Assembly: GCA_017447625.1 (NCBI GenBank)
Contig: JAFSNB010000035.1
Coordinates: forward strand, 54,972 to 118,971
Reading direction: 5' to 3'
DNA from: Bacteroidaceae bacterium
GTDB taxonomy: Bacteria; Bacteroidota; Bacteroidia; Bacteroidales; Bacteroidaceae
Length of the DNA stretch: 64,000 bases
Positions 13,380 to 56,625 of the stretch are shown piece after piece. Position 1 is the stretch's first letter, and each line of letters begins with the position of its first letter. The notes beneath the pieces were generated by a model. The model was not told where the DNA came from. It made no database searches and worked only from the letters and a program-made list of their open reading frames with translations. The translations under genes were made by a program, and so were the position numbers.

Positions 13380-13545
13380 GACTCTCCCCCCTGCCCCTCC
13401 CTGTGAGTGAGGGGAGTAGTTAGAGGACAAGGGAAGAAACCAAATGTAAAATGTAGAATGTAGAATTGAGAACTATGAATAAAGAGAATTTATCCTGCCA
13501 ATCTCATTCTGCTCCCTCCCTACAAGGGAGGGCGGGGGGAGAGTC
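13380..13545. repeat. Composite palindromic element 2 (166 bp)
   Basis: The reverse half (13380-13431) starts GACTCTCCCCCC, four bases after a stop codon. Then come AATGTAR heptamers and an ATG at 13475. The forward half (13503-13545) ends GGGGGGAGAGTC. It resembles element 5 at 56463-56625 along almost its full length, including the start codon and the first 24 codons. Confidence 0.9.
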
Positions 13546-14017
13546 CGCTACATCCATTTTGTTCGTCTGTCACGGAAACATCTGCCGCAGCCCGATGGCT
13601 GAGTTCGTAATGAAGGACTTGGTAGAGAAGGCCGGTCTCGCAGACCAGTTCTATATCGAGTCCGCAGCCACCTCAACCGAGGAGATTGGAAACCCCGTCT
13701 ATCCCCCAGCCCGCGCGAAATTGGCAGAACACGGAATCGGGTGCCGAGGCAAGACTGCCCGTCAGATGACCCGCGCCGACTACGACCGCTTCGACCTACT
13801 CATCGGGATGGACCGCTGGAACATCCGCAACATGCAACGGATTTGCGGAGACGATCCAGACGGCAAGATCCATCTCCTCATGGACTACACCGAACGCCCG
13901 GGCGAAGTAGCTGACCCCTGGTACACCGGCAATTTCGATGCCACGTGGCGTGACGTCCTCGAAGGCTGCCAAGGACTCCTCAATAAGCTCAGTTTCTCCG
14001 TATCAACCTCCTTCTGA
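13475..14017 (+). CDS. Low-molecular-weight protein-tyrosine phosphatase
   Basis: 180 residues. It removes phosphate from phosphotyrosine proteins through a cysteine-phosphate intermediate. The signature CHGNICRS has the nucleophile at Cys32 and the P-loop arginine at Arg38; the general acid is the Asp of ADPWY near residue 150. In family members the catalytic Cys is usually within the first 10-15 residues. Here an extra stretch, containing SAPSLQGRAGGES, is encoded by a palindromic repeat that also supplies the ATG. A TTG at 13466 is an alternative start. Partners are unknown; it follows the GTPase cluster but lies beyond a composite repeat, so operon membership is uncertain. Confidence 0.92.
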   Translation: MNKENLSCQSHSAPSLQGRAGGESATSILFVCHGNICRSPMAEFVMKDLVEKAGLADQFYIESAATSTEEIGNPVYPPARAKLAEHGIGCRGKTARQMTRADYDRFDLLIGMDRWNIRNMQRICGDDPDGKIHLLMDYTERPGEVADPWYTGNFDATWRDVLEGCQGLLNKLSFSVSTSF

Positions 14018-14029
14018 TATTTTTCAATA

Positions 14030-14059
14030 AAGAAGCCGCCCCAAGAGGAGCGGCTTCTT
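14030..14059. terminator. Bidirectional terminator hairpin
   Basis: A perfect 10-bp stem (AAGAAGCCGC / GCGGCTTCTT) with a 10-base loop lies between the convergent phosphatase and aldolase genes. T-rich flanks on both strands suit termination in both directions. Confidence 0.85.
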
Positions 14060-14084
14060 ACATTAATTAATAATAAGGGAGATT

Positions 14085-15083
14085 TTAGAGTTTGTCGTTG
14101 GAGCCGAGCACATTCACAATCTTGTGGATGTACATCTTCTTCATGTTCTCACGAGCGGGCTTCAGATACTGACGCGGATCGAAGTGGCTGGGGTTCTCAG
14201 CGAGGTACTTGCGGATAGCAGCAGTCATAGCCAGGCGGCTGTCGGAGTCGATGTTGATCTTGCACACAGCGCTCTTGCTGGCTTCGCGCAGCTGCTCCTC
14301 GGGGATACCGACTGCATCAGGCAACTTGCCACCGTAGGCGTTGATGGTGTCCACCTCTTCCTGAGGCACGGAGCTGGAACCGTGGAGCACGATGGGGAAG
14401 CCGGGGATGCGCTTCTCAATCTCATGCAGGATGTTGAAAGCGAGGGGAGGAGGCACGAGTTTGCCGGTCTTCGGGTCACGGGTGCACTGCTCAGGGGTGA
14501 ACTTGTAAGCGCCGTGGCTGGTGCCGATGGAGATGGCGAGGCTATCGCAACCGCTACGCTTACTAAAGTCTTCCACTTCCTCGGGACGGGTGTAGTGGCT
14601 AACAGCGCTACTGACCTCGTCCTCAACACCTGCGAGGACACCGAGCTCAGCCTCAACGGTTACATCGTGAGCATGAGCATACTCTACGACCTTCTTGGTG
14701 ATAGCGATGTTCTCTTCATAGGGGAGAGCACTGCCGTCGAACATGACGCTGGAGAAACCGTTGTCAATGCACTCCTTGCAAATCTCAAAGCTGTCACCGT
14801 GGTCGAGGTGAAGGGCAATCTGAGGATTGGGACAGCCGAGCTCCTTGGCATACTCCACAGCACCCTGAGCCATGTAGCGGAGGATGGTGCCGTTGGCGTA
14901 GTTGCGAGCGCCCTTGCTGACCTGCATGATGACGGGAGAGTTGGTCTCCACAGCGGCCTGCACGATGGCCTGCATCTGCTCCATAGTGTTGAAATTGAAT
15001 GCGGGGATTGCATAGCCGCCCGCAACTGCCTTCTTGAACATCTCACGGGTGTTCACCAGGCCTAACTCTTTGTAGCTTACCAT
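14085..15083 (-). CDS. fba: Fructose-bisphosphate aldolase, class II
   Basis: 332 residues, a normal length for the longer class II form. It cleaves fructose 1,6-bisphosphate to dihydroxyacetone phosphate and glyceraldehyde 3-phosphate in glycolysis and runs the reverse in gluconeogenesis. Family motifs are present: LHLDHGD with a zinc histidine and the catalytic Asp, VEAELG, GTSHGAYK and VLHGSSS (zinc histidines and phosphate-binding loop), and NIDSDSR near the end. The start MVSYKELG is typical. It stands alone on the minus strand, sharing a terminator with the phosphatase. Its leader (15084-15125) is AT-rich with short tandem repeats. Confidence 0.96.
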   Translation of the reverse strand: MVSYKELGLVNTREMFKKAVAGGYAIPAFNFNTMEQMQAIVQAAVETNSPVIMQVSKGARNYANGTILRYMAQGAVEYAKELGCPNPQIALHLDHGDSFEICKECIDNGFSSVMFDGSALPYEENIAITKKVVEYAHAHDVTVEAELGVLAGVEDEVSSAVSHYTRPEEVEDFSKRSGCDSLAISIGTSHGAYKFTPEQCTRDPKTGKLVPPPLAFNILHEIEKRIPGFPIVLHGSSSVPQEEVDTINAYGGKLPDAVGIPEEQLREASKSAVCKINIDSDSRLAMTAAIRKYLAENPSHFDPRQYLKPARENMKKMYIHKIVNVLGSNDKL

Positions 15084-15186
15084 AGATGAGTAATTTAAAA
15101 ATTAAAAAGTAAAAATTAAAAATTTAGTGATATGTTTTAAACGATTGAAAGCTCTGAGCAGATTATTCTACATTTTACATTATTTC

Positions 15187-22273: not shown

Positions 22274-23068
22274 ATGAGGGTAACAATAATGCAGCGAGAC
22301 ATAGAATGGGCAGACCCCGCCAAGAATTTGGCGAGGGCTGAAGCCGCTATGCTGCATATCCCCGCTGACACAGACCTCATTGTCCTCCCTGAGATGTTCG
22401 CCACCGGATTCATCACCGATCCGACCCCGCACCGGGGACAGTGTGTCAGTCGGTTTCCCCGACTGAATCCGTCTTCCGAGTCCCTCTCCTGGATGCGACA
22501 TATAGCAGCCGAGCGCGGTTGCGCTGTAGCCGGCAGCGTCGCTATTCAATGTGACGAAAGTTACAGAAACCGCTTCTATTTCGTGAAGCCCGACGGCAGT
22601 GTCGCCTTCTACGACAAACGGCACCTCTTCACTTACGGCGGAGAGGATAAGCATTATACAGCTGGCACGGAACGCACCGTAGTCGAATGGCGCGGTGTCC
22701 GCTTCCTACTTATGGTATGCTATGACCTGCGTTTTCCGATATGGAGCCGCAACCACGAGGACTACGACGCAGCCATATACGTAGCCAGCTGGCCCACTCC
22801 GCGCATTCAGGCCTGGCAGACTTTGCTCCACGCACGTGCCATTGAGAACCAATGCTTTGTAATCGGTGTGAATCGCGTGGGCAGCGACCCAAACTGCGAC
22901 TATTCCGGAGGCTCTGTAATCATCGACGCAAAAGGACGCGACCTTGCCACCTGCCCAATGAACGAGGAATCAACGGCCACTGCCACACTCGACATGGATG
23001 CCCTGCGAGCTTTCCGCGAGAAGTTCCCCGTACTCAATGACAGAGACGAATACATTATTAAAATGTAG
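22274..23068 (+). CDS. Nitrilase-superfamily omega-amidase-like hydrolase
   Basis: 264 residues, cytosolic. The Glu-Lys-Cys triad is visible: LPEMFATGF (Glu near 41), YDKRHLF (Lys near 116) and VCYDLRFP (Cys near 150). It is closest to the YafV/Nit2 branch, which deamidates alpha-keto acid amides such as 2-oxoglutaramate made by glutamine-dependent aminotransferases. Between TGF and WMRHIA the spacing is about nine residues longer than I expect for this branch; that stretch is encoded by two small palindromes (22425-22465). It precedes iorA on the same strand, and an aminotransferase follows, consistent with amino-acid metabolism. Confidence 0.88.
   Translation: MRVTIMQRDIEWADPAKNLARAEAAMLHIPADTDLIVLPEMFATGFITDPTPHRGQCVSRFPRLNPSSESLSWMRHIAAERGCAVAGSVAIQCDESYRNRFYFVKPDGSVAFYDKRHLFTYGGEDKHYTAGTERTVVEWRGVRFLLMVCYDLRFPIWSRNHEDYDAAIYVASWPTPRIQAWQTLLHARAIENQCFVIGVNRVGSDPNCDYSGGSVIIDAKGRDLATCPMNEESTATATLDMDALRAFREKFPVLNDRDEYIIKM
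22425..22465 (+). repeat. Twin small palindromes inside the amidase gene
   Basis: CCCCG-CAC-CGGGG (22425-22437) and CAGTCGG-TTTCC-CCGACTG (22447-22465) lie in the stretch that seems to lengthen the protein. Confidence 0.7.
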
Positions 23069-23115
23069 AATGTAAAATGTAAAATGTAGAATGTAAAATT
23101 TATTATAAATATAAA
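23064..23115. repeat. AATGTAR heptamer repeat in spacer
   Basis: About five heptamers AATGTAA/AATGTAG begin at the upstream stop codon; AT-rich sequence then runs to the iorA start. Confidence 0.8.
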
Positions 23116-24818: not shown

Positions 24819-25409
24819 ATGCATAAAGAGTCCTATAATTGCAACATAATCCTTTGTGGCGTGGGAGGACAAGGAATCCTCAGCATTGCCACCATAATTG
24901 GCGAAGCAGCCATGAATGAGAATCTATATATCAAACAAGCTGAAGTTCACGGAATGAGTCAGCGCGGCGGCGACGTGCAGTCGAACCTGCGCATCAGCAG
25001 CAATCCCATCGCCAGCGACCTTATCCCCAAAGGCGGGGCTGACGTAATTATCTCGATGGAACCGATGGAGGCTCTGCGCTACCTGCCTTATCTGAGCAAG
25101 GACGGGTGGGTAATCACATCCAGCGCTCCCTTCGTGAATATCCCCAATTACCCTGATATTGAAGCCATTAAGGCAGAACTGGCAAAGCTTCCGCATGTCA
25201 TTGCCATAGACATCGAACAGCTGGCCAAGGACAATCAGGTTCCCCGCTCGGCCAATGTAATCCTTCTTGGAGCCGCACAGCAAGCTCTCGGCATCGACTA
25301 CGACAAACTGGAAGCTGCCATCCGCAGCGTCTTCGCCCGCAAAGGTGAAGCCATCGTGGATGCCAATATCAAGGCGTTAGGAATTGGCAAAGAAGGGAAG
25401 GGAATGTAA
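24819..25409 (+). CDS. iorB: Indolepyruvate ferredoxin oxidoreductase, beta subunit
   Basis: 196 residues, the gamma-type domain of 2-oxoacid:ferredoxin oxidoreductases. GVGGQGILS near residue 12 and the VHGMSQRGGDVQSN motif are diagnostic, and GGADVIISMEPMEALRYL is typical of IorB. It pairs with IorA to oxidise aryl-pyruvates or carboxylate aryl-acetyl-CoA. It is probably cotranscribed with iorA and with the aminotransferase that follows after 24 bases. Confidence 0.95.
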   Translation: MHKESYNCNIILCGVGGQGILSIATIIGEAAMNENLYIKQAEVHGMSQRGGDVQSNLRISSNPIASDLIPKGGADVIISMEPMEALRYLPYLSKDGWVITSSAPFVNIPNYPDIEAIKAELAKLPHVIAIDIEQLAKDNQVPRSANVILLGAAQQALGIDYDKLEAAIRSVFARKGEAIVDANIKALGIGKEGKGM

Positions 25410-25433
25410 AATGTATAATGTTTAACTGCATTT

Positions 25434-26807
25434 ATGAATAAAGGAAATACAACCTGCCAAACTCATTCTGCTCCCTCCCTCACAGGGAGGGCGGGGGGAG
25501 AGTCCTCCCCAATCCCCAAACCCATCGTTGACAATCTGATAGCCAAACTGGGCATTCAGGACTTTGCCAAAGCTACGATCCGCGAAGTAAAGCAGGTGGC
25601 AGCTATGGCTGAGAAAGAGAGCGGTGTGGAATTCATAAAGATGGAGATGGGCATTCCCGGACTGCCCGCCGCTCAAGTGGGTGTCGATGCTCAGGTCAAG
25701 GCCTTGCAGGACGGCATCGCCCACTCCTACCCCGACATTCAGGGCTATCCCGAACTGAAGAAGCAGGCATCGCGCTTTGTAAAAGCATTCATCGGTGTGG
25801 ACATCGCAGCCGAAGGCTGTGTTCCCGTAACCGGCTCTATGCAAGGTACTTTTGCCTCGTTCCTCACCTGTTCACAGGCATCTAAGCAGAAGGACACCGT
25901 TCTGTTCATAGACCCAGGCTTCCCTGTACAGAAGATGCAGCTGCAGGTTATGGGCGTGAAGTACGAGACCTTCGATGTCTATGACTTCCGTGGCGACAAG
26001 CTACGCGGCAAGCTGGAGAGCTATCTTGCAAAAGGCAACATCTGCGCCATAGTCTATTCCAACCCCAATAACCCCTCGTGGGTATGCCTCACAGAGAGCG
26101 AGCTGCAGATTATCGGCGAACTGGCAACACAGTACGACTGCATCATTATGGAGGATCTGGCATACTTCGCCATGGACTTCCGCCAGGATCTGAGCGTGCC
26201 TTTCCAGCCCCCATATCAGCCCACCGTAGCCCGCTATACAGACAACTATATGCTGCTTATCAGCGGCTCTAAGGCATTCAGCTATGCAGGCGAGCGCATC
26301 GGTGTGGTTTGCATCAGCAACAAACTGTTCCATCGCCACTTCGACGACCTCTGTGCGCGCTATGAAGGCCTGCCCTTCGGTCTCGTATTCTCTACACGTA
26401 TGCTCTATGCTTTGAGCAGCGGAACGAGCCACTCGGCTCAATACGCACTGGCAGCCATGTTCCGCGCCGCCTGCGATGGTGAATATCGATTCCGCGATGA
26501 AATCAAAGTTTATGGCGAGCGAGCCAGGAAGCTCAAGGAGATATTCCTGAAGCACGGCTTCCATGTGGTCTATGACCGCGACCTCGACCAGCCTGTAGCT
26601 GACGGTTTCTACTTCACCATCGGATACAAGGATATGACCAGTGGGCAGCTCGCACGCGAACTAATGTATTATGGTGTATCTGCCATCTGCCTCATCACCA
26701 CAGGCTCCCATCAGGAGGGTCTCCGCGTCTGCACCTCATTCATCGAGGATCACCAGTACGCCCAGCTCGACGAGCGCATGGCTATCTTCGAGGCCAATAA
26801 CCCATAA
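25434..26807 (+). CDS. PLP-dependent class I/II aminotransferase
   Basis: 457 residues. Fold-type I features: YPDIQGYPELK (substrate/cofactor region), NPNNPSW, a D-L-A-Y motif, and ISGSKAFSYAGERIG with the Schiff-base Lys. Placed between iorAB and the phenylacetate-CoA ligases, it probably interconverts aromatic amino acids and aryl-pyruvates, though substrate choice cannot be read directly. The first 24 residues, ending SAPSLTGRAGGES, come from a palindromic repeat and match the N-termini of the phosphatase at 13475 and PurM at 56555. The protein proper seems to begin near PKPIVDNLIAKLG. Confidence 0.92.
   Translation: MNKGNTTCQTHSAPSLTGRAGGESSPIPKPIVDNLIAKLGIQDFAKATIREVKQVAAMAEKESGVEFIKMEMGIPGLPAAQVGVDAQVKALQDGIAHSYPDIQGYPELKKQASRFVKAFIGVDIAAEGCVPVTGSMQGTFASFLTCSQASKQKDTVLFIDPGFPVQKMQLQVMGVKYETFDVYDFRGDKLRGKLESYLAKGNICAIVYSNPNNPSWVCLTESELQIIGELATQYDCIIMEDLAYFAMDFRQDLSVPFQPPYQPTVARYTDNYMLLISGSKAFSYAGERIGVVCISNKLFHRHFDDLCARYEGLPFGLVFSTRMLYALSSGTSHSAQYALAAMFRAACDGEYRFRDEIKVYGERARKLKEIFLKHGFHVVYDRDLDQPVADGFYFTIGYKDMTSGQLARELMYYGVSAICLITTGSHQEGLRVCTSFIEDHQYAQLDERMAIFEANNP
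25462..25504 (+). repeat. Palindromic repeat, type A, encoding an N-terminus
   Basis: CCCTCCCT-CAC-AGGGAGGG with the GGGGGGAGAGTC end lies in frame at codons 10-24 of the aminotransferase. There is no reverse half upstream of it. Confidence 0.88.
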
Positions 26808-29711: not shown

Positions 29712-31019
29712 ATGATCTGGAACCCTAACAAGGAATGCATGAGCCGCGACGAGATGAGCGCGCTCCAAGGCAAACGCCTCCACAAAATCGTGGAGTACGT
29801 TTATCACAACGTACCCTTCTATCGTAACAAACTGCAGGAGTTGGACATCCGTCCCGATGACATACAGACCATCGAGGACATACACAAACTGCCCTTCACC
29901 ACAAAGAAGGATCTGCGCGACAACTATCCCTTCGGCTTGCAGGCTGCGCCGCAGAGCGAGATTATCCGCGTACACGCCTCCAGCGGCACCACAGGCAACC
30001 CCACTATCGTCGGTTATACGCGCAAGGACATCGGCGTCTGGAGCGAGTGCATGGCACGCTGCCTCACAGCCTACGGTGTTACGCGCAATGACATATTCTC
30101 CGTGGCCTATGGCTACGGCCTCTTCACCGGCGGCCTCGGCGCTCACTACGGAGTGGAACATCTCGGAGCATCCGTGATTCCTGCCGGAACGGGCAACACC
30201 GAGAAGCACCTGAAACTCATCCGCGACCTCGGCATCACAGGCATCGCCTGCACACCCTCGTATGCCCTCTATCTGGCTGAGACCATGGAGAAACTGGGCA
30301 TCCGCAAGGAGGACATTAAGTTGCGCGTCGGAGCCTTCGGCGCTGAGCCGTGGACAGAGAGTATGCGCAAGGAAATTGAAGAACGTCTCGGGCTGAAGGG
30401 CTATAACATCTACGGACTCTCCGAGGTGATGGGACCCAGCGTGAGCTACGAATGTCAGATGCAGCACGGCTCGCACATCAACGAAGACCATTTCTATCCC
30501 GAGATCATCAACCCCACCACCTTAGAACCTCTGCCAGCCGGACAGACCGGCGAGCTAGTGTTCACCACCCTGACCAAAGAGGGTATGCCGGTGCTGCGCT
30601 ACCGCACCCGAGACCTCTGCTCGCTCATGCCCGGCACATGCGACTGCGGTCGCACCAACGTGCGAATGGGCCGCATCGAAGGCCGCTCGGACGATATGCT
30701 CATCATCCGAGGCATCAACGTGTTCCCCTCTCAGGTGGAGAGCGTCGTGCTCAGTATGCCGGAGTTCGCACCGCGATACATGCTCATCGTGGATCGCGTC
30801 AACAACCTCGACACGCTGCAGGTGCAGGTGGAAATCCGTCAGGAGTACTTCACCGGAGTCTTCGACACGCCCGCAGCCATCGACGCCCTGGAGAAGAAGC
30901 TCGCCGCCAAGCTCAAGAGCGTGCTCAGTATCGCCGCCAAGGTACAGCTCAAAGCCCCCAACACCATCGAGCGCAGTCAGGGCAAGAGCGCCCATGTGAT
31001 TGATAAGAGGAAACTATAG
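29712..31019 (+). CDS. paaK: Phenylacetate-CoA ligase (first copy)
   Basis: 435 residues, the usual length for the family. It activates phenylacetate, or another aryl acid, with ATP and CoA to the CoA thioester through an acyl-AMP. The motif ASSGTTGNPTI is the AMP-binding P-loop; YGLSEVMGP and YRTRDL are family motifs; a C-terminal subdomain follows RSDDMLIIRG. The start MIWNPNKECMSRDEM is typical. The second copy follows after a composite repeat. With iorAB it links aryl acids and aryl-pyruvates. Confidence 0.94.
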   Translation: MIWNPNKECMSRDEMSALQGKRLHKIVEYVYHNVPFYRNKLQELDIRPDDIQTIEDIHKLPFTTKKDLRDNYPFGLQAAPQSEIIRVHASSGTTGNPTIVGYTRKDIGVWSECMARCLTAYGVTRNDIFSVAYGYGLFTGGLGAHYGVEHLGASVIPAGTGNTEKHLKLIRDLGITGIACTPSYALYLAETMEKLGIRKEDIKLRVGAFGAEPWTESMRKEIEERLGLKGYNIYGLSEVMGPSVSYECQMQHGSHINEDHFYPEIINPTTLEPLPAGQTGELVFTTLTKEGMPVLRYRTRDLCSLMPGTCDCGRTNVRMGRIEGRSDDMLIIRGINVFPSQVESVVLSMPEFAPRYMLIVDRVNNLDTLQVQVEIRQEYFTGVFDTPAAIDALEKKLAAKLKSVLSIAAKVQLKAPNTIERSQGKSAHVIDKRKL

Positions 31020-31168
31020 ACCCACCCCCTTACCCCTCCCGTCAGGGAGGGGAGTACCTGCGGGTTGAAACAATTTTTAGATTTAAACATAATTTTATAT
31101 TATATGGACAATACAGAAACATTGCGCCAGCCTCACTCCTCCCTTACGGGAGGGGCTGGGGGTGGGTC
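31019..31168. repeat. Composite palindromic element 3 (150 bp)
   Basis: It begins GACCCACCCCC at the last base of the first ligase stop codon and ends GGGGGTGGGTC inside the N-terminal coding region of the second ligase. An AT-rich middle and the second gene's ATG lie inside it. Confidence 0.88.
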
Positions 31169-32468
31169 TTCTTATTTCAACCCCTCCTTTGAAACAATGT
31201 CGAGGGAGCAGATTGAAGCGCTCCAACTCGAACGTCTGCAGAAGACAGTACGCCACTGCATGAACAACGAGTTCTACCGCAAGAAGTTCGCCGAGGCAGG
31301 CATTACACCCGATGACATCAAGACGCTTGCCGACGTGCGCAAACTGCCCTTCACCACAAAGCAGGACCTGCGCGACACCTATCCCTTCGGGATGGCGTGC
31401 GTCCCCCTGCGCGACTGCGTCCGCCTGCACTCCAGCAGCGGCACAACGGGCAACCCCACCGTAATCCTCCACACACAGAAGGACTTGGACGAGTGGGCTA
31501 ACCAGGTGGCACGTAACCTCTGGATGGTGGGACTGCGCCCCGACGATGTGTTCCAGAACTCCTCTGGGTATGGTATGTTCACCGGCGGCCTCGGCTTCCA
31601 GTACGGTGCCGAGAAGCTGGGAATGCTCACCGTGCCTGCCGCCGCCGGCAACTCCCTGCGTCAGATAAAATTTATCAAGGACTTCGGCACCACAGCCATC
31701 CACGCCGTACCCTCGTACGTCACCCGTCTCTACGAAGTGATGAAGGAGGAAGGCGTAGATCCCCGCCGCGACACCAAACTGAAAGTGCTCTGCATCGGTG
31801 CCGAGCCTCACAGCGAGGAACAGCGCCGCCGTATCGAGGAGATGATGGGAGTAAAAGCATACAACTCCTTCGGAATGAGCGAGATGTGCGGCCCGGGCGT
31901 CGGCTTCGAATGTCCCGAGCAGAACGGTATGCACTTCTGGGAAGACTACTATATCGTTGAGATTGTGGATCCCGAGACTCTGGAGCCAGTACCCGACGGC
32001 GAAATTGGCGAGCTCGTACTCACCACCCTCTGTCGTGAGGCAATGCCGCTGCTACGCTATCGCACACGCGACCTCACCCGCGTCCTCGGCCGCAGTTGTC
32101 CCTGCGGGCGCAACCACATCCGTCTCGACCGTATGCGTGGCCGCTCCGATGATATGATGGTGCTGCGCGGCGTCAACATCTTCCCCATACAAATCGAGAA
32201 GATTCTGATGCAGTTCCCCGAACTCGCCAGCAACTACCTCATCACCCTCACCACCGACGAGGAGAACGACAACATGACTGTAGAGGTCGAACTGGCACAG
32301 CCCACCGACGACTTCAAGCAACTGTTGGATCTCGAGCACGAGATACGCCGCCGCCTGAAAGACGAGATACTGCTCACCCCCATCGTGAAGCTCGTGGCCA
32401 AAGGCTCGCTCCCCGTCAGCGAGGGCAAAGCCGTCCGCGTCGTTGATAAGCGCAAAGTGTATCAATAA
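31104..32468 (+). CDS. paaK: Phenylacetate-CoA ligase (second copy)
   Basis: 454 residues, diverged from the first copy but with the same motifs: SSSGTTGNPTV, FGMSEMCGP, YRTRDLTRV, RSDDMMVLRG. Tandem ligases probably differ in aryl-acid preference. Compared with the first copy, the protein proper begins near YFNPSFETMSREQ; the roughly 23 residues before it (MDNTETLRQ, then SSLTGGAGGGSS) are encoded by the forward half of composite element 3, which also carries the ATG at 31104. The family start may have been lost or replaced. Confidence 0.93.
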   Translation: MDNTETLRQPHSSLTGGAGGGSSYFNPSFETMSREQIEALQLERLQKTVRHCMNNEFYRKKFAEAGITPDDIKTLADVRKLPFTTKQDLRDTYPFGMACVPLRDCVRLHSSSGTTGNPTVILHTQKDLDEWANQVARNLWMVGLRPDDVFQNSSGYGMFTGGLGFQYGAEKLGMLTVPAAAGNSLRQIKFIKDFGTTAIHAVPSYVTRLYEVMKEEGVDPRRDTKLKVLCIGAEPHSEEQRRRIEEMMGVKAYNSFGMSEMCGPGVGFECPEQNGMHFWEDYYIVEIVDPETLEPVPDGEIGELVLTTLCREAMPLLRYRTRDLTRVLGRSCPCGRNHIRLDRMRGRSDDMMVLRGVNIFPIQIEKILMQFPELASNYLITLTTDEENDNMTVEVELAQPTDDFKQLLDLEHEIRRRLKDEILLTPIVKLVAKGSLPVSEGKAVRVVDKRKVYQ

Positions 32469-32635
32469 GACCCACCCCCTACCCCTCCCGTAATGGAGGG
32501 GCGGCCTGCGGGCAGACTTCATAACAATTATTTATCAGTAATCTCAATAAAGTATTAATCTATAAAAGATGACCCTATAAGCCCTCCAAGCGCCAGCTAC
32601 TCCCCTCCCTCACGGGAGGGGTTTGGGGGTGGGTC
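32469..32635. repeat. Composite palindromic element 4 (167 bp)
   Basis: It starts GACCCACCCCC on the base after the second ligase stop codon and ends GGGGGTGGGTC eight bases before the ACT gene. Including flanking bases, the inverted ends extend to TAAGACCCACCCCC / GGGGGTGGGTCTTA. Confidence 0.9.
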
Positions 32636-32643
32636 TTACCATT

Positions 32644-33725: not shown

Positions 33726-33760
33726 GTGACCCTTCCCCAAAGATTTATTGACCCTTCGGC

Positions 33761-33949: not shown

Positions 33950-33970
33950 GTTGTCGTTCTATAGAGATTC

Positions 33971-38713: not shown

Positions 38714-39931
38714 TTAATTATATTTTTTTGCGCAAATTGCTGTTGCCATAAGATTCAGGGCCTGACACTGGGCGGCTGTGATGGTGCGGTGCTCGTTATG
38801 ATGGGGCCAAGGGGCCAACATTAGCAGACGCCCGGCAGTACAGGCATAGAACTGCTCCCCGTCCGGCTTTGAGAGAGGGGTGAAGCCATTCTCTACCAAA
38901 ACGATAACAGGCAGCGAGGCATCAAAGGCGGCACGCATAACAGCCTTCTCACCTGGAGAGATTGCAGGTGAGACTAAGACCGCTCCATCACGGGCGGCAG
39001 CGAGATAACGGGATACTTCTTCTTGGATTTGAGTTGGGGTGCAACGGCGCGAGACCCGCACCTGAAGGCGGCGCGGAGCCTTCAAGAGATCAAGGTTGCC
39101 GATGGCAGAGAAGGTATAACCAGCCACCTGAACATCAAAGTGGGGAGAAAGCAGGTGGGAAAAAGTGCGTTTCAGATACAGGCGGCGCGGATTATCAGCA
39201 AGGTAGTTTTTCCACACTTCCAGCTGGTTAGCGTGAAAGAGTATGCGGTCGTTGTAGCCGCTGGCAAAAAGAAGGCCGCGCTCCCGGTCGTAAGCAGAGC
39301 GAGGAGGGCGAGGGCGGGAAAGCTGAGAGGGGGTGGCGTGCGGCTGGGGTTGTGTTTGTCGTGGCATTGCCACAACACACGAGACAGAAGAAGAGGGAAC
39401 AGCAGAGGATGAGGGAACCGAGGGGGCGGTAGGAGAAGAAGGAAGCGCAGAAGAGGAAGAAACCGCGGGAGCGGAGGGAGCCTGCCCAAGGATTAGCTCG
39501 CGGTAGTCTTTGTTACAGCCGCTCTTGAAGCCAGAGATTATCTGTCCGAGAGTGTGTTGCATGTGTTCACGAACAAAGAGTATGCCATGCAGATGGTCAG
39601 GCATCATCTGTAAAGCGATGACTTCTACCTCTTTATACCGAGAGCCTATGGACAGAAAGTTGGTACGGACGCGCTCACCCAATGGTGAGAGTCGGATTTC
39701 AGCTTTAATCTGATGTATAGTTTCCTCAAAATTAGGGTCGTCTGTTTTGTTCTGAGGGAGCGGGAGGGCTTCCCCAACAATCTCTCCAAATAACGGACGG
39801 CGGTCCTGAACAACTAAGGTGACCATATAGAACTGGCGACCCTGATAGTCTTGGCCAACACGACGGCGATTCATGGAGGGCTTTGTCTCGCCAGCAAAAG
39901 CCTGCCGCTTCTTATACGTCTCCTTATCCAT
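38714..39931 (-). CDS. Y1 (HUH) transposase, RAYT-like, with a C-terminal Rossmann-like domain
   Basis: 405 residues from the ATG at 39931; a TTG at 39961 is less likely. The N-terminal part has the IS200/REP-associated tyrosine transposase hallmarks: FYMVTLVVQDRRPLFGE, MPDHLHGILFV with the HUH pair, and a tyrosine in CNKDYREL as a candidate nucleophile. A 70-residue Ser/Pro-rich insert splits the domain before the typical NPRRLYLKR. The C-terminal third (FSAIGNLDLLKAP to LLMLAPWP) looks like a DprA/SLOG-type nucleotide-binding fold (VLVSPAISPGEKAVMRAA, PVIVLVENGF). Such enzymes act on palindromic REP sequences. It is flanked by identical 15-bp direct repeats. Confidence 0.82.
   Translation of the reverse strand: MDKETYKKRQAFAGETKPSMNRRRVGQDYQGRQFYMVTLVVQDRRPLFGEIVGEALPLPQNKTDDPNFEETIHQIKAEIRLSPLGERVRTNFLSIGSRYKEVEVIALQMMPDHLHGILFVREHMQHTLGQIISGFKSGCNKDYRELILGQAPSAPAVSSSSALPSSPTAPSVPSSSAVPSSSVSCVVAMPRQTQPQPHATPSQLSRPRPPRSAYDRERGLLFASGYNDRILFHANQLEVWKNYLADNPRRLYLKRTFSHLLSPHFDVQVAGYTFSAIGNLDLLKAPRRLQVRVSRRCTPTQIQEEVSRYLAAARDGAVLVSPAISPGEKAVMRAAFDASLPVIVLVENGFTPLSKPDGEQFYACTAGRLLMLAPWPHHNEHRTITAAQCQALNLMATAICAKKYN
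38723..38737. repeat. 15-bp direct repeat, 3' side of transposase
   Basis: TTTTTTTGCGCAAAT, identical to 39949-39963 and in the same orientation. This copy encodes the last residues (ICAKK) of the transposase. Confidence 0.85.
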
Positions 39932-39948
39932 AGAATGTGGAAGTTGTC

Positions 39949-39963
39949 TTTTTTTGCGCAAAT
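39949..39963. repeat. 15-bp direct repeat, 5' side of transposase
   Basis: Second copy of TTTTTTTGCGCAAAT, 18 bases upstream of the transposase ATG and one base from the end of the DUF3256 gene. Confidence 0.85.
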
Positions 39964-39964: not shown

Positions 39965-40675
39965 CTATTTCCACTTTCCGTCTGTCCACGTTTTGGTTAT
40001 GGGGCGGACGAGTTCGCGGGCGGCTTTGCGCTCGGCGATACTGAGGTCTGCGATCTGAAGGGTGAGGGTAAGGGCGGGGGAATCGGGGGAGAGAGTGGCG
40101 TGAATCGGGTGGAAATCGAGGAGGCTGCGTTGGGCGGATTTAGCCAGCGGGACAAGGGCCTGCGAGGAGACTGTGCCGGTGCAGAAGTCTGGCACTGAGG
40201 GGATTGCAAGGAAATCGAAGGCTGGAAGCGGTTGCCAGCCTGTGGTGTAGAAGCGGACGCTGCTATCCTTCAACTGCAGGGAGTCGGCTCCTGTGACGAC
40301 CGTTGAGACGAAGCAGATGATGAGGGAGTCGGCAGCGGGCAGGAGCTTCATCTCGATATAAGCGGAGGTGCTGGTGGCAAAACGCAGGTAGGTGGGGGTG
40401 AGCGCTTCGAGAGTGACATACTCTCCGAATGAGCCGCGCACCTTGGCTTCCATGTTGTTCTCTATGAAATCGATGCAGTCGAGGCGGTTGTTGCGGGTGA
40501 CTGTGGGCAGGATGCTGTCAGGCAAGGTGGCAAAGACATCTCGCATCTGAAGAGAGGGGGAAGATGCGAGGGTGTCTGCGGGAAGGGGGAGCGCAGAGAG
40601 AGGGGATGCGGAGAGAGGGGTCGCGGCTATGCCACGACACACAAGACAGAGGAGGATGGAGAGAAGCTTATACAT
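39965..40675 (-). CDS. DUF3256 family exported protein
   Basis: 236 residues. Signal peptide MYKLLSILLCLVCRGIAA, then a low-complexity stretch of S-A-S-P-L-type repeats. The body matches DUF3256, a Bacteroidales family: DVFATLPDSILPTVTRNNRLDCIDFIENNMEAKV, then a strand-rich region with MKLLPAADS. The function is unknown; it is probably periplasmic. The Pro/Ser-rich segment after the signal is encoded by degenerate GC-rich repeats. It is upstream of the transposase on the same strand. Confidence 0.88.
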   Translation of the reverse strand: MYKLLSILLCLVCRGIAATPLSASPLSALPLPADTLASSPSLQMRDVFATLPDSILPTVTRNNRLDCIDFIENNMEAKVRGSFGEYVTLEALTPTYLRFATSTSAYIEMKLLPAADSLIICFVSTVVTGADSLQLKDSSVRFYTTGWQPLPAFDFLAIPSVPDFCTGTVSSQALVPLAKSAQRSLLDFHPIHATLSPDSPALTLTLQIADLSIAERKAARELVRPITKTWTDGKWK

Positions 40676-40720
40676 TTTACATTCAACATTCTATATTATA
40701 CATTCTACATTTTACATTAC
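40674..40720. repeat. TTTACAT/TCTACAT heptamer repeat
   Basis: AT-rich heptamers starting at the DUF3256 start codon fill most of the spacer towards the transporter gene. Confidence 0.75.
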
Positions 40721-40733
40721 GTCGCTACGTAAG

Positions 40734-41765: not shown

Positions 41766-41829
41766 GGGGTAGAGAAAAGAGAAAAAGAGAAAAGATTAAA
41801 GATTAGAGATTAAAGATTAAAGATGGGGG

Positions 41830-41928
41830 GGTACGGAGTTACGGAATTACGGAGTTTCGGAATTACGGAATAACGGAATTACGGATTAACGGATTAACGG
41901 ATTAACGGATTAACGGATTAACGGATTA
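41830..41928. repeat. ATTACGG / ATTAACGG tandem repeat overlapping the truA stop
   Basis: 7-8 bp units: first (A)ATTACGG types, then about five perfect ATTAACGG units. The array supplies the truA stop codon (41926-41928). A related array flanks the other end of truA. Confidence 0.9.
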
Positions 41929-42687
41929 ATATTTGATATTTTGGAGATAGAGGCCGCAGGCGGGAACGCTCTCGCCGGCGGCACAGCGGTCGCGGGAGTC
42001 GATGATCTGACGGAAGCCGTCGATGTCTATGTCTCCGCGCCCTACGAGCATCAGGGTTCCGACGATGGCGCGAACCATGTTGCGGAGGAAACGGTCTGCG
42101 GTGATCTCAAAGCGCCACTCGTAGTCAGAAAGCTGCACCCAACGGGCCAGCATTATGCGGCAGTTGTTGGTCTTTGTGTCCGTCTGAACCTTGGAGAAGC
42201 TGGTGAAGTCGATATAATCGAAGAGGACGGCTGCGGCACGGTTCATAGCCTCGAAGTCGGGCGTGTTGGGCAAGAACCAACTGCGGCCCACGAGGAAGGG
42301 ATCCTTGCGCGTGTGTACATAATAATAATATGTACGCGCACGAGCATCGAAGCGGGCGTGAGCGTCCGGTGCCACGGGATAGATGCGGTGAATGGCAATG
42401 TCTCGCGGCAGCAGTTTGTTCAGTTTGTAGGCGAGTTGGGCGCACTGGGCTTCTGTCTCAGCAGACTCCAAGGAAGGGAAGAACAGGCCTTCAAAATCGA
42501 AATGCGCCACCATCAAGCGAGCGTGAACGCCGGTGTCTGTGCGGCCTGCACCCGTGACAGCCACAGGCTGACGAAGCAGGGTGGCAAGTGCATCCTGCAA
42601 GCATCCCTGAACAGAGTTTGCATTAGGCTGCACCTGCCACCCGTGATAGGCTGTTCCGTCGTATGAGATATCTATGAAATAACGCAA
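41926..42687 (-). CDS. truA: tRNA pseudouridine synthase A
   Basis: 253 residues, a normal length. It makes pseudouridine at positions 38-40 of the tRNA anticodon arm. The start RYFIDISYDGTAYHGWQVQPN and the catalytic Asp in AGRTDTGVHA are diagnostic, and FRFEIT-like and NMVRAIVGTL motifs follow. The start codon is a TTG at 42687; there is no in-frame ATG between it and an upstream stop that lies inside a tandem repeat. Both gene ends touch related repeat arrays. Confidence 0.95.
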   Translation of the reverse strand: MRYFIDISYDGTAYHGWQVQPNANSVQGCLQDALATLLRQPVAVTGAGRTDTGVHARLMVAHFDFEGLFFPSLESAETEAQCAQLAYKLNKLLPRDIAIHRIYPVAPDAHARFDARARTYYYYVHTRKDPFLVGRSWFLPNTPDFEAMNRAAAVLFDYIDFTSFSKVQTDTKTNNCRIMLARWVQLSDYEWRFEITADRFLRNMVRAIVGTLMLVGRGDIDIDGFRQIIDSRDRCAAGESVPACGLYLQNIKY

Positions 42688-42736
42688 GGATTTACGGAAT
42701 TACGGATTTACGGAATTACGGATTTACGGAATTAGG
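42688..42736. repeat. ATTTACGG-AATTACGG tandem repeat upstream of truA
   Basis: About three units of a 16-bp repeat made of two related octamers lie between the truA start and the stop of the next minus-strand gene. Confidence 0.9.
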
Positions 42737-45700
42737 TCATTTTACAAACTTTTTGCGGCCAGAGATGTATATGCCGCGAGAAGCGGTCTTGCTGACACGC
42801 CGTCCGTCGAGCATAAATGTCTGAGAATTAACATCGTCTGCATCGATGACGCTGATGGCATCGGGAGAGCTACTTTGCTTGTAATTGCTCATCTGGATGT
42901 CATCGATATTCAGACGCTGGTTCTCATTGCCATCCTGAGTGGCGAAGCGCAGACGAATCAGACCGTCCTGCTGAATAGCGTAAGAATAGCGTTTCCACTC
43001 GCCGTTAGTGAATGCAAGAGTCTCAACGACAGGAGTCCAAGTCTGACCGCCATCCAGTGAGTAACTGACTGTGAGCGTGGGCTTTGTGTCCTTGTTATAA
43101 AGGCCTGCATAGAAGGAGAGGGAGTCGCAGCCCTCTGTCTTATCTTCGTTCATTTCCAGACGACCGCCAATCTTCATTCGCACGCAACGGCCGCCGCCTG
43201 CGTTGGCATCGTTTGCAAGGAGTGCGTTGGCAAGAGTCCAGGTTGCGGCATTACAGGTGACGGAACCTTCGGCATAGCCGCCTTTGGTGCCACTCTCGAA
43301 GTTCTCGAAGAAGGCCTTGTCCTCATCAACCACAGCCGAGAGACTTACAACCAGCTCATTCACGCCGGGAGCCGTAAGAATCATTTCGCCCTCGTAAGCA
43401 CCTGCGGCAGCTACAGCACCGAGACGCACATAGAATGAGGGATTGTAGGTGGTCAGAAGCAATTCACCGCTCCAGTTCTCGCCGTCGGCGCTCACCTCGA
43501 AGGGAGCCGGGCAGGAGATGCTGGTCTCGTATTTGGAGAGGGCAAGAGTGGTGACGGAAAGTCTCAACTCACGTGACGGAACACCGGGCTGTGATGTCAG
43601 AGCTACAGAGTTCGGCGACACGGAGAATACGGGCTTCACCGCTGGCATATCCACCTGCACCTGGTTGCTGGTGAGGGAGCCTGCAGATACCTGATAATAG
43701 TATGTGGTTGAAGCCTTTAGGCCGGAAACCACGTATGAGGTGTCAGCCGTTGTTACGGGATAGCCGCTGAGCGATGTGCGCTCACCATTCGTTATGGTAT
43801 AGACATCAAGGGAATAAGTCTCACCTTCGGCAAGAGCCATATTCTTCCAGCAGGCAGTGAAGTTCTTGGTGTTCATGTTGCAGACGATGCTTGCCGGGTC
43901 GTAGGCCGGAATACCGTCAATAACATTCATCCTGAGAGTCACGCTGTGTGAAAGATTATTGCCATCGCTCAAAACGAGAGTGGCGGTGCAGGGGCCGGCT
44001 GTGGTAGCTGTGCGACTGATGGTAATTACCGCTCCAGCCTCCACCTGTGCGGCGGTGAGCGTTGCGGGTGACACGCTGAAACTGTGGTTGTTATCTTCAA
44101 GACTGACATTCAGGTTGCCAGCGAGATTACGTCCGCGAACTACAATCTTATGATTCATTTCCGTCTGCAAGGACTGCAAACCGAAGTCGATTACGCTTCC
44201 GCTACGCGGTACGAACAGTTCTGGAACTATTGACTTAGAATTGATGTAGAAGGCAAATTCTGTGCTGTCGCCCCAGACGTAGTCGGCCAGTTGCGGCATA
44301 TCCACGTATGGATTGCGGTTGCCCTGAATGGCAAAGACAGAATCGTTGCGGGCACGTTCGATGTCATCAACCGGGTCATTCTCAGCCCATTCGAGCATCA
44401 GCTGATAGACCCACGGGCGCATCAGAGGCCACGAAGCCGAGGGATCAACTGTAAGCAGTCCTTCGGTGGTCTGCCAAAGTGCTGTCATGTGCTCGTAGGC
44501 CGTAGCCATATAGAAATATGTACGCGCGAAGTCGCCCTTCCACTTATCTGCAGGCTCCCAAGCGGTAATCAGGGAGTCGGCGCGGTAGCTGCTGCTCTTT
44601 CCGACGCGGGTAACGCCGTTGTCGAAGGCTATTGCCCCATCGACCACTCCGATTGGGTTGTTGCTCTTGCGGCCGTTGGCAGAAGCATCAGCCGGGAAGA
44701 GGTTGAAGAGGTCGCAATAGGCGTTGTTCACCACATGTCCCCACCAAGAGTTGGCCCAGATGTGCTCGATATTCATTCCATCCACTGCCTGCAAGCCCTT
44801 GAATGTGCGGTCGATATTGCTGTAGCGGTCGCGGATGTGTCCGTTGCCGAGGTTATCGGTGCGGGCAAAGCCTGACCACGTGTAGCCCTCGCCCTTGCCG
44901 CCGTATTCCAAAACGTATGCGGGCTGGATAATGTCGTGAAGGGCGGTCTTCAACTGAGCTTTCTTCAGACCCTGAACTGTGGCGTAGTAGTGTTCTATAC
45001 GAGAGGCAGCAGTCTCGGGCAAAGCCTTGACATTCACGCCTTTAATCTCCCAGGCCCAGCAACGTGAGCTGTTGGCACGATAGTTGAATGCGATATGGAT
45101 TGCCTGTCCGGCAAACTGGTCAAGACTAATCTCTCCGGATGAGGCATATTTGGTATAGCCGCTATTTACTATGTCGGGCCAAGCAACTATCAGGCTCTGC
45201 CAAGTAGCTGTCTGAGGTGCTGAAGACGGCTCATAATCTGTGGATACAAGCACCTGGAACATCTGCGACGGGTCATTTGAAGAGTTATAGCCCGTGGCGT
45301 GACTGAATTCAAGAGTTGCGCCCTGCATTCCCGTGAGGTCAATGGCAGGAGATATCAGCCACTCGTCACCGCTCTTGTCTGCTGCATTATAGGCATTAGC
45401 CACCATTCCATAGGCCTTGTTATTAGTCCATATCGCAGAGGGCTCGCCATTTATATCCAAGAGAGCGAAACCATAATCAGCAGCGGTCTGTGCTGTGAAA
45501 TCAGCGAAGATAACATCTATGCTGTCAAGCTCTACAGGCTGCGGAGTAGGCGGCGTAGGAGTGGGTTCTATGTTGTTGCCTCCGTTCACGTTAAAGGCAT
45601 AGTCAACGCTGTCGCCCCAGATGTATTCAGCCAGATTCTGATAGTCAACAAAGGGATTGCGGTTGCCCTGAATCTGATAGACAGCCTCGTTGCGAGCACG

Positions 45701-53145: not shown

Positions 53146-53171
53146 GCCCCCTGTAATCCCCCGGCGGGGGA
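53146..53171. repeat. Degenerate palindromic repeat after purC
   Basis: GGCCCCCTGTAATCCCCCGG then CGGGGGATA: the type B/D core CCCCCGGCGGGGG, three bases after the purC stop codon. Confidence 0.7.
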
Positions 53172-53173
53172 TA

Positions 53174-53225
53174 CATGGTTAAAAGGTTAAAACGTTAAAA
53201 GGTTAAATGGTTAAAAGGTTTAAAG
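53174..53225. repeat. GGTTAAAA octamer repeat
   Basis: About six GGTTAAAA-type units end at the menG start codon. Confidence 0.85.
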
Positions 53226-53933: not shown

Positions 53934-54748
53934 AACAGGAATACGGATTGCTAGGCCACCCCTTAGGCCACTCGTTCTCGCGTGCGTTCTTTAATGATAA
54001 GTTTGCGCGCGAGGGGATAGATGCCGAATACCTTAACTTCGACCTCTCGGACATCAGCGAACTGCCCCAGCTGCTTGCCGAGCACCCGAACTTGTGCGGT
54101 CTCAACGTCACAATCCCCTACAAGCAGGCCGTTATTCCGTATCTTGACGAACTGTCCGACGAAGCCCGCGCCATCGGAGCCGTAAATGTGATTAAAGTAC
54201 TCCCCCCCACGGCAGCTGTCCTCCCCCCCACGGGGGGAGTTAGAGAGGGGCCTTACCTCAAAGGTTTCAACTCAGACGTCATCGGTTTCACCGAAAGCAT
54301 ACGCCCTCTGTTGGAGCCACACCACAAGAAAGCCCTCGTTCTCGGTACCGGCGGAGCATCAAAAGCTGTTTGCGCCGGTCTTGACAAACTCGGCATCGAG
54401 TGGCGCTACGTTTCGAGAAGCGGGGCTGGGGAGAGGCTTTTCACCTACTCCGATCTCACTCCCGAAATTATTGCCGAATACACAGTTATAGTCAACTGTA
54501 CCCCTCTGGGTATGTATCCGCGCATAGACTCCTGTCCCGAAATCCCATATCGAGCCCTCAGTCCTCGGCACCTTCTCTTCGACCTCGTGTATAACCCAGA
54601 GATAACCCTCTTCATGCGCAACGGTCGCCGTCAGGGAGCCAAAGTAAAGAACGGGCTCGAAATGCTTCACCTTCAGGCTCTGGCCAGTTGGGAGTTTTGG
54701 ACCGGGGAGGCCCCCTTAGCCCCCCAGAGGGGGGGAATTGACAATTGA
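53930..54748 (+). CDS. aroE: Shikimate 5-dehydrogenase
   Basis: 272 residues from the ATG at 53930. It reduces 3-dehydroshikimate with NADPH. Motifs: [12 protein letters not shown] (substrate serines), [12 protein letters not shown] with the catalytic Lys, FNSDVIGF with the Asp, and [11 protein letters not shown] for NADPH. Two repeat-derived parts: [20 protein letters not shown] (about 90-107), inserted between the GAVNVIKV strand and YLKGFNSD where homologues have a short turn, and the C-terminal [14 protein letters not shown], which ends in a heptamer repeat that gives the stop. The active-site residues are intact, so it may still function. Confidence 0.95.
54199..54252 (+). repeat. Palindromic repeat, type B dimer, inside aroE
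   Basis: A partial unit (CTCCCCCCCACGGC) followed by a full unit (CCTCCCCCCCCACGGGGGGAG, TTAGAGAGGGGC), in frame. The same partial-plus-full arrangement occurs at 55761-55815 (reverse) and 57829-57880. Confidence 0.9.
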
Positions 54749-55752: not shown

Positions 55753-55760
55753 AGCCCCAA

Positions 55761-55815
55761 GCCCCTCTCCGGCTCCCCCCGTGGGGGGGGAGGTAAGCCG
55801 CGGGGGGGGAGAGAC
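55761..55815 (-). repeat. Palindromic repeat, type B dimer (reverse)
   Basis: GCCCCTCTCCGGCTCCCCCC then GTGGGGGGGGAGG, a short link and CCGCGGGGGGGGAGAGAC. It begins nine bases after the stop of the TPM gene. Confidence 0.88.
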
Positions 55816-55869
55816 CTGCGGGCTAACTCATAAACGATTAAACTCATAAACTCATAAACTCACACAATT

Positions 55870-56457
55870 ATGAAAAAGTCAACTATTTATGTTATCATCG
55901 CAGTTGTCGTCGTTCTTATCGGCGTTTATGGCTGCAACACCTACAACGGTTTTGTCACTCAGGACGAGAACGTATCACGCGCCTGGTCAGACGTGGAAAC
56001 TCAGTATCAGCGTCGTGCTGACCTTATCCCCAACCTCGTGAACACAGTCAAGGGCTATGCCGCTCACGAGAGCGAGACCCTGAAGGCTGTCATCGAAGCC
56101 CGTTCAAAGGCCACACAGGTAACGGTAGATCCCTCAAACATCACACCCGAGAAACTGGCTGAATTCCAAGAGGCACAGGGTGCCGTAAGTCAGGCTCTCG
56201 GTCGCCTGCTCGCTGTCGCAGAGTCCTATCCCGACCTGAAGGCCAATGAACAGTTCTTGGAGCTGCAGGCTCAGCTCGAAGGCACAGAGAACCGCATCGC
56301 TGAGTCCCGCCGCATCTTCAACGAAGCCGCTCAGACATACAACGTCAGCGTCCGCCGTTTCCCCGCCAACATCTTTGCTAATATGTTCGGCTTCACCACC
56401 AAAGGCAACTTCAAAGCTGAGGAAGGAGCAGAAAAAGCGCCAACGGTTGAGTTTTAG
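55870..56457 (+). CDS. lemA: LemA family protein
   Basis: 195 residues. N-terminal membrane segment (about 5-20), then the helical LemA body: YNGFVTQDENVSRAWSDVETQYQRRADLIPNLVNTVKGYA is nearly diagnostic, and NRIAESRRIFNEAAQTYN and FPANIFANMFGF follow. Its biochemical role is unknown; it often accompanies TPM-domain proteins, as here. The AT-rich spacer in front has AAACTCAT octamers. Confidence 0.96.
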   Translation: MKKSTIYVIIAVVVVLIGVYGCNTYNGFVTQDENVSRAWSDVETQYQRRADLIPNLVNTVKGYAAHESETLKAVIEARSKATQVTVDPSNITPEKLAEFQEAQGAVSQALGRLLAVAESYPDLKANEQFLELQAQLEGTENRIAESRRIFNEAAQTYNVSVRRFPANIFANMFGFTTKGNFKAEEGAEKAPTVEF

Positions 56458-56462
56458 GAGAA

Positions 56463-56625
56463 GACCCACCCCCCTGCCCCTCCCTGGCCACTTCGTTAGG
56501 GAGGGGAGTAATTAGAGGACAAGAAGAAAAATGTAGAATGTAGAATTGAAAACTATGAAAAAAGAGAACTCATCCAGTCAAACTCATTCTGCTCCCTCCC
56601 TACAAGGGAGGGCGGGGGGAGAGTC
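56463..56625. repeat. Composite palindromic element 5 (163 bp)
   Basis: The reverse half (56463-56523) starts GACCCACCCCCC five bases after the lemA stop. Then come AATGTAG heptamers and the purM ATG. The forward half (56583-56625) ends GGGGGGAGAGTC. It is a near-copy of element 2 at 13380-13545, with differences mainly in the left hairpin loop. Confidence 0.92.

Follow-up and report, generated by a model that had tools for sequence, protein, structure and literature searches.

A dispersed palindromic element in a Bacteroidaceae genome lies in frame in many unrelated genes and includes a subfamily that appears to carry a start codon

In a 64,000-nucleotide stretch of a Bacteroidaceae genome (assembly GCA_017447625.1, contig JAFSNB010000035.1, positions 54,972 to 118,971 of the forward strand; hereafter the window), a preliminary description made from the letters alone had reported that three unrelated enzymes, a low molecular weight phosphatase (ATG at 13475), an aminotransferase (25434) and PurM (56555), begin with the same type of 24-residue peptide, which raises the question of how such genes came to share an N-terminus. 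The peptide is present at all three (MNKENLSCQSHSAPSLQGRAGGES, MNKGNTTCQTHSAPSLTGRAGGES and MKKENSSSQTHSAPSLQGRAGGES, respectively), and corresponds, in translation, to the right half of a dispersed element. This element is mostly 111–170 bp long, and its ends are two inverted hairpins (GACTCTCCCCCC...GGGGGGAGAGTC). The best explanation of the whole, to which we assign a probability of roughly 0.82, is a non-autonomous palindromic family that behaves like the Rickettsia palindromic elements (RPEs) and that has a subfamily carrying a start codon.

The left end of the element reads GACTCTCCCCCCTGCCCCTCCCT...AGGGAGGGGAG and the right end CTCCCTCCCTnnnnGGGAGGGCGGGGGGAGAGTC, with RGAC...GTCY at the ends by inspection, and the centre between them is variable in length and A+T-rich in the copies found at gene starts. 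An alternative ending, GGGTGGGTC, is also present, for example at the second of two phenylacetate-CoA ligase genes (ATG at 31104), where the related copy noted previously was found to lie inside an inverted-repeat element of its own; the TAG stop of the first ligase open reading frame (ORF; stop at 31017–31019) overlaps the edge of this element and the ATG of the second ligase is inside it. Upstream of the phosphatase, the TAA of the preceding gene is followed by four bases and then by the left end, and no left end was found at the aminotransferase. The 24-codon stretch proposed as the repeat unit is real, but the unit is the whole element, left end included. Positions 13439–13548 and 56519–56628, around the phosphatase and purM starts, are 90% identical across the ATG and the sequence upstream of it, so that the repeat does contain the start codon.

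A genome-wide search, as the preliminary description had proposed, returned 44 matches to the phosphatase copy (13475–13560) in the genome (2.56 Mb, 46 contigs), showing that the repeat is not due to chance. Within the genus, 39 of 61 genomes contain element ends, and a pattern scan of named genomes found at least 113 stretches; among the 113 matches listed, 110 are titled Bacteroidaceae, Prevotellaceae, Prevotella or Bacteroidales, two Candidatus Physcousia equi and one Ruminococcus. The ends were then counted over the window, 31 further stretches of the same genome and 173 loci of relatives, giving 397 unique ends, 73 of them from the genome itself, and a script found 125 paired elements, mostly of 111–170 nt. 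Since the ends were found by one regular expression, with one codon-score cut-off and simple gene calls, the classes given below are approximate, and the genome's own stretches, having been picked for their resemblance to the phosphatase copy, give proportions that hold for that subfamily and not for the genome's repeats at large. No Rfam family matched at its gathering score within the window, and a known RNA family was rejected for the phosphatase element, which gave only three Rfam hits, far below the cut-offs. At two sites (L165/L199 and L177/L192), each apparently one internal position shared by two species, the elements differ greatly in their centres, as though these had been exchanged while the ends stayed.

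Comparison with orthologues (20 loci of the ligase and 30 of each of the other three genes, the latter drawn from longer lists of matches, with the genome's own included) indicates that the peptide was inserted and is not ancestral, since most orthologues of the four genes are without it; the possibility of an ancestral domain common to all orthologues, which had been raised at the outset, is thereby ruled out. The phosphatase peptide is shared only with the nearest relative, G059, and is absent from 28 of 29 relatives' loci; the aminotransferase peptide is likewise shared only with G059 and is absent from 27 of 28 informative loci (L143 is incomplete and not informative, and L124 has a possible relic, NSHSAPSATP). 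It had been claimed that recognisable family sequence begins only after the peptide, and this was borne out: position 1 of the Pfam LMWPc profile aligns at residue 28 of the phosphatase, and most orthologues of all four genes start at the corresponding point. The purM start is occupied in two further species (G015 and G039) with other leaders (MRDNQISKDTTPSLKGRAGGES and MSKTNNKSGKVTAPSLTGRAGGES), so that three species each have a different leader there, and is without the element in 27 of 29 relatives' loci. For the ligase, an element-like leader is present in five of the 20 loci, own included and one of them degenerate, and most of the others start a few residues ahead of YFNPE-ETLSRE. The occupied purM and ligase starts show that gene starts are recurrent sites of insertion.

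Empty sites have a recognisable form. In six relatives with an element-free purM (L093, L094, L095, L097, L098 and L100), the upstream stop overlaps the start codon as TGATGG or TAATGG, and in a seventh (L096) there is a gap of 17 nt to the upstream gene; more distant element-free relatives have another upstream neighbourhood. A compound insertion of about 380 nt separates L297 from L222, the latter again having a stop/start overlap (TAATG). A script labelled 21 junctions as empty in all, several of which retain diverged hairpins, and only those quoted here were checked by eye. In G059, which has the element at some of the same sites, coding sequence flanking the phosphatase has about 80% identity to this genome, but 13367–13566 (about 200 bp) differs by one indel only; 25128–25552 at the aminotransferase has three mismatches, with the tract reaching far into the upstream gene; and at a cytidylyltransferase the element is common to both genomes, with leaders differing by two bases in 72. 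The simplest reading of the near-identical patches is that the element was carried between the two genomes on short recombination tracts; constraint or an assembly artefact may be proposed instead.

The start codon appears to travel with one subfamily. Taking as its leader type CATCCAGYCAAA with at most two changes and no more than 40 nt away from the hairpin, 17 of the 19 copies in the genome are read in an ORF, 14 at starts and three internally, and one of the two exceptions is a free-standing small ORF, MNNDKTSSQIVTAPSLTGRAGGES-stop (L055). In the sister TTGTCCTCATTTCG type, 13 of 15 copies lie just upstream of an ATG (one ambiguous) and none is a strict start case, that is, one with no ATG within 36 nt after the element end. 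Since the two types are placed differently, a start-carrying subfamily does exist. Pfam searches covered 21 of the 22 start cases in the genome, and all 21 matched a recognised family. The tagged proteins include, besides the phosphatase, aminotransferase, PurM and cytidylyltransferase, TsaD, a semialdehyde dehydrogenase, a NUDIX protein, an acyl-ACP thioesterase, a SAM-dependent methyltransferase with PUA, a pyridine nucleotide-disulphide oxidoreductase, a queuine tRNA-ribosyltransferase, an MFS transporter, a HAD hydrolase and a class I tRNA synthetase with the valyl C-terminal arm. The distance from ATG to hairpin is at least 19 nt in all 72 measured cases and 28–37 nt in 52, and the 30 nt upstream of the ATG are 72% A+T. 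The suggestion that the repeat acts as a translation-initiation module therefore holds in part, in that the start codon travels with the leader subfamily in this genome, but the same element also occurs untranslated between genes, abutting or supplying stops, and in frame inside genes, which makes initiation a particular case of a palindromic DNA that is read in frame.

Ends that lie within ORFs show a bias of reading frame. Of the genome's own 73 ends, 43 face a gene that leads away, with six internal to an ORF, 19 strict start cases, three starts with an ATG soon after, and 15 upstream of the gene's own start (seven closed, eight open without a start). The 19 strict start cases are divided 16, two and one among phases 2, 1 and 0, and among relatives the corresponding numbers are 49, two and three for strict starts and 49, three and three for internal ends. 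Overall, 120 ends are in phase 2 against seven and seven (68 of the 397 ends are without an adjacent called gene and stand outside the phase counts), the copies being related and not independent trials; an earlier count of ends with no following ATG, from fewer loci and before removal of repeats, gave 65, five and one. All but four of these 120 ends (116) are open in phase 0 too. An in-frame stop lies 80–115 nt before the element end in 18 of the 19 strict start cases of the genome, and with no ATG soon after the end, most tagged genes are thus left without an alternative ATG start.

Whole elements can be divided by position as well. Among the 125 pairs, 57 are at gene junctions, evenly spread over three length classes (17, 22 and 18), and 36 of these are closed in all six frames; 48 are internal, with 35 in one length class and 17 of exactly 113 nt, and all are open in at least one of the six frames; the remaining 20 were classed as other. 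As openness is part of the definition of internal, it is the length class that provides the independent sign, and internal copies look like survivors of insertion and junction copies look free. Internal copies typically lie midway along long ORFs and read DSPPALPVREGA...APSLTGRAGGES there, and in this genome they occur in an inositol-phosphatase-family protein and an alpha-N-acetylglucosaminidase, as identified by Pfam; another ORF (L034:8568-10616) had no Pfam match. A single ORF on the minus strand (L035:3245-4897) encodes a 5'-nucleotidase C-terminal domain, the element and then a metallophosphatase domain, and is perhaps two genes fused through the element. The frame bias inside genes is probably due to survival, and at gene starts the frame may instead travel with the copy. 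The earlier proposal that only insertions in this phase survive is thus the best fit for internal copies, but at starts it is not separated from its alternative, that the element evolved to be read through.

Where an end faces the 3' side of a gene, the stop codon falls at -1 to +12 nt of the element edge in 73 of 151 cases, most commonly at 2 nt; three others have the stop at 28–32 nt, and in the remaining 75 it is deeper in the element or past it, the script being blind beyond 45 nt outward. Gaps between genes that are without the element have a much broader spread than these stop-to-element distances. In a smaller set, 23 of 120 such ends were at least 300 nt from a called gene, which probably reflects missed genes. 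At one junction (L253), which we take to be that between NqrC and NqrD, the end of the upstream protein, TLPPPSL, is read from the element. Copies upstream of a gene are followed by an ATG 4–23 nt past the element end in all of those listed but one, which has none there.

Taken together, copies would persist where they are least harmful, either at tight gene junctions or, in frame, in those parts of proteins that tolerate them. An element at a junction would take over the gene boundary, with the upstream stop at its edge or inside its left end and the downstream gene starting either at an ATG just past the element or at an ATG in the A+T-rich centre, from which ribosomes would continue across the right hairpin (APSLTGRAGGES) and on into the enzyme; in this way a subfamily with the leader ATGAATAAAGAGAAYACATCCAGYCAAA would carry a start codon from gene to gene. 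The sequences show the dispersal, the insertion into sites that are empty elsewhere, the anatomy, the open read-through and the subfamilies. Translation of the tagged genes would begin at the element's own ATG, and the tag is probably a tolerated tail without a function of its own. More tentatively, the subfamily can be seen as a portable gene-boundary cassette that ends the upstream gene and provides a spacer, a start codon and a standard leader for the downstream gene, moving from gene to gene and, on short recombination tracts, from one species to another, and rewriting protein ends across a genome as it does so; we regard this wider picture as possible but rather unlikely.

Two other explanations concern the tags themselves. 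If they were untranslated, with starts downstream at ATG, GTG, TTG or non-standard codons, the open frame would be a by-product of hairpin composition, and indeed most copies have two open frames at the right end and a TTG or ATG lies soon past the end in a few cases. Ahead of the conserved core, however, most cases have no ATG, the used phase is found 120 times against seven and seven even though phase 0 is mostly open too, and internal copies must be translated if the host gene works, all of which makes this explanation improbable. It could also be that the start-carrying element is a cassette under selection, in which the A+T-rich spacer, the start codon and the A-rich first codons before the hairpin give good or regulated translation. 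This agrees with the different placement of the two subfamilies, the spacing from ATG to hairpin with its A+T-rich stretch before the ATG, the clustering of stops at the element edge, the near-identical patch that two species have at the phosphatase despite flanks of only about 80% identity, and the fact that tags stay in frame between orthologues (pN, the nonsynonymous proportion, 0.080; pS, the synonymous, 0.139). The resulting pN/pS of about 0.58, from 12 non-independent pairs, is too weak for a claim of selection, however, and the tagged genes have no function in common, orthologues manage without the tag, leaders differ widely between species, the spacing could be survivorship, and a recent recombination tract would account for the identical patch as well, so that selection for such a role is unlikely.

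A further explanation concerns the kind of element and what moves it, and is compatible with a start-carrying subfamily. Each end could be a repetitive extragenic palindromic (REP) sequence and the element a pair resembling a bacterial interspersed mosaic element (BIME), moved by a REP-associated tyrosine transposase (RAYT), with the coding use as a side effect. RAYT genes are usually flanked by their REPs. The element is presumably moved by an enzyme acting in trans, and proteins of a RAYT-like kind are present. The Pfam family Y1_Tnp has no match in the genome itself, and weak matches occur in 22 of the 61 genomes (nine of the 15 with at least 17 element matches against 13 of the 46 others, p 0.034). 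Eight of these weak matches in element-rich relatives are RAYT-like, with DHLH or DHVH and YxxDNPRR-like motifs, and six of the eight resemble the NCBIfam REP-associated tyrosine transposase (E 4e-8 to 4e-13, 33–49 bits), but score below its cut-off of 80. A model built on the RAYT-like proteins, which are mostly 340–540 aa long, matches in 39 of 61 genomes, with six matches in this genome, one of which is in the window. Such proteins are present in 32 of the 39 genomes with element matches against seven of the 22 without (p 0.0002), and in all 15 genomes with at least 17 matches against 24 of the 46 others (p 0.0005), with a rank correlation of 0.57 between the two, all three figures being uncorrected for shared ancestry; strong Y1_Tnp matches (E 1e-15 or better) had no association with the element among the genomes. 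The inverted hairpin pairs beside stop codons and the lack of a target-site duplication are likewise as expected of REPs, and stop-supplying REPs and REPs inside ORFs are described in PMC3733652. Unlike REPs, the ends read RGAC...GTCY, with no GTAG or CGTC tag found at the palindrome end on inspection, the RAYT-like genes are almost never adjoined by element ends, and one subfamily carries a start. A REP/BIME identity thus appears somewhat unlikely. With an association at the level of genomes and ends that do not adjoin the RAYT-like ORFs, a route by which a RAYT-like protein would move the element in trans is plausible and unproven, a possibility that we place a little short of even.

Several observations weigh against the explanation of a mobile, start-carrying palindromic family. 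No target-site duplication was detected in 72 pairs, with flank lengths of 2–12 and shifts of -4 to 4 compared with shuffled pairs (the largest z, 2.2, was at a shift falling inside the element ends), and an element end lies within 300 nt of only one of 51 RAYT-like ORFs (L391, where the end touches the ORF). The element-free purM of G059, the nearest relative, has a gap of 89 nt and no stop/start overlap. Alternative starts exist in places: PurM has a second possible ATG 10 nt past the element end, the phosphatase has a TTG at +13, and in a few cases a TTG inside or just past the tag is a possible start. In relatives, certain N-terminal copies apparently come after a start and signal peptide of the host gene, and supplying the start is therefore not universal. 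The separation of internal from junction copies was made by a simple script, and the genomes are draft assemblies, mostly metagenome-assembled genomes where titled, with the source genome 73% complete.

The copies in the window, together with the RAYT-like gene, are collected in Table 1.

Table 1. Positions of element copies and of the RAYT-like gene in the window.
Feature	Position	Strand	Remarks
Right end of a non-coding copy, 18 nt 5' of the ATG of ORF 3192-5090	3140..3173	+	
Non-coding TTGTCCTCATTTCG-type copy, directly 3' of the stop of ORF 8690-10279	10280..10434	+	
Whole element, junction of upstream gene and phosphatase	13380..13545	+	left end 13380-13411, right end 13512-13545
Putative start codon and 24-codon leader, fused to low molecular weight phosphatase (CDS 13475-14017)	13475..13546	+	
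Putative start codon and 24-codon leader, aminotransferase (CDS 25434-26807)	25434..25505	+	right end 25471-25504
Related GGGTGGGTC-ended element between two phenylacetate-CoA ligase genes	about 31019..31168	+	
Further inverted GGGTGGGTC-type pair, 3' of second ligase gene	32467..32636	+	repeat families D16, I2, I9
RAYT-like protein, candidate mobilising enzyme	38714..39961	-	model match 38729-39925 (model A2)
Whole element at purM start	56463..56625	+	left end 56463-56503, right end 56592-56625
Putative start codon and 24-codon leader, PurM (CDS 56555-57826)	56555..56626	+	
Small 59 nt in-frame copy inside purM, read DPLPSKVTAPSLTGRAGGES	57353..57411	+	loop varying between species

The loop of PurM that holds the small copy has other palindrome-like inserts in L103 and L102 (SPLPLWGS...LPQRGSGEGA and DPLPPFRG...LPLKGVGG), which makes it look like a hotspot. 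A search with the regular expression over 1,488 and 1,461 nt on either side of the window's RAYT-like gene (L376) gave no element ends, and the gene lies between similar short stretches, TTTTTTTGCGCAAATTGCTGTTGCC and TTTTTTTGCGCAAATGCTATTTCC (at 38725 and 39948), perhaps marks of its own insertion. The window also contains other repeats. A second palindromic family (TCCCCCCCACGGGGGGAG...GAGAGGGGC) occurs at 4390–4440, 7786–7836, 11525–11558 and 54201–54251, and also at 57828–57878, 40987–41034 and 55757–55789; four copies are in one frame around LPP-(T/S)-GG inside ORFs, and the copy at 54201 is in a protein with a shikimate dehydrogenase N-terminal domain. Tandem repeats of 22 bp (CCTTGGGAGATTGATGTTTTCC) at 33716–33979 are followed at 33968–34077 by a second 22-bp series with ACACAGCTGTGT-type palindromes, and 8-bp tandem repeats (TTACGGAA and GGTTAAAA types) are found at 41819–41937, 42672–42750 and 53169–53224. 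Finally, A+T-rich repeats of 7 bp (AATGTAA and AATTCAT types) are located at 207–274, 1220–1263, 5941–5989, 23055–23114 and 40668–40721, and stretches like these precede the start codon in several start-carrying elements.

Among known systems, the element most resembles RPEs, which PMC2229807 and PMC10969869 describe as palindromic repeats of about 100–150 bp located between genes and in frame inside unrelated conserved genes. The family here is likewise a dispersed palindrome of about that length, inserted in frame in unrelated conserved genes whose orthologues are without the insert. The hosts of RPEs are intracellular alphaproteobacteria, whereas this element is in gut Bacteroidaceae and is likened to RPEs by description, not by sequence; a role in supplying start codons, as in the subfamily here, is not mentioned for RPEs in the consulted text of the two papers. 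The protein-coding palindromic repeats of Wolbachia, mentioned in the consulted text of PMC2996958, are similar, and the same text describes the palindromic amphipathic repeat coding elements (PARCELs), which are also palindromic DNA read as protein, but which are tandem amphipathic repeats linked to membrane proteins, whereas the insertions here are single and many are in enzymes of known families. Miniature inverted-repeat transposable elements (MITEs) such as Correia/NEMIS, ERIC and RUP share with this element the short length, terminal inverted repeats, many copies and lack of a transposase gene of their own; in contrast to them, it has no detected target-site duplication and no identified parent insertion sequence, and in-frame use is frequent.

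In-frame palindromic selfish DNA has been described mainly from Rickettsia and Wolbachia. No report of such an element in Prevotella or other Bacteroidaceae was found in the titles and abstract beginnings of the open-licence papers that the searches returned, so that, as far as was searched, a dispersed palindromic family read in frame, working like RPEs and built somewhat like REP pairs, is new for this group. It is a large family, whose sites are often empty in one close species and filled in another and whose candidate enzyme is encoded in the same genomes, and it could be used to test how mobile DNA becomes protein sequence. Tagged genes are at risk of wrong start assignment in annotation, and the start-carrying subfamily would move a translation start between genes.

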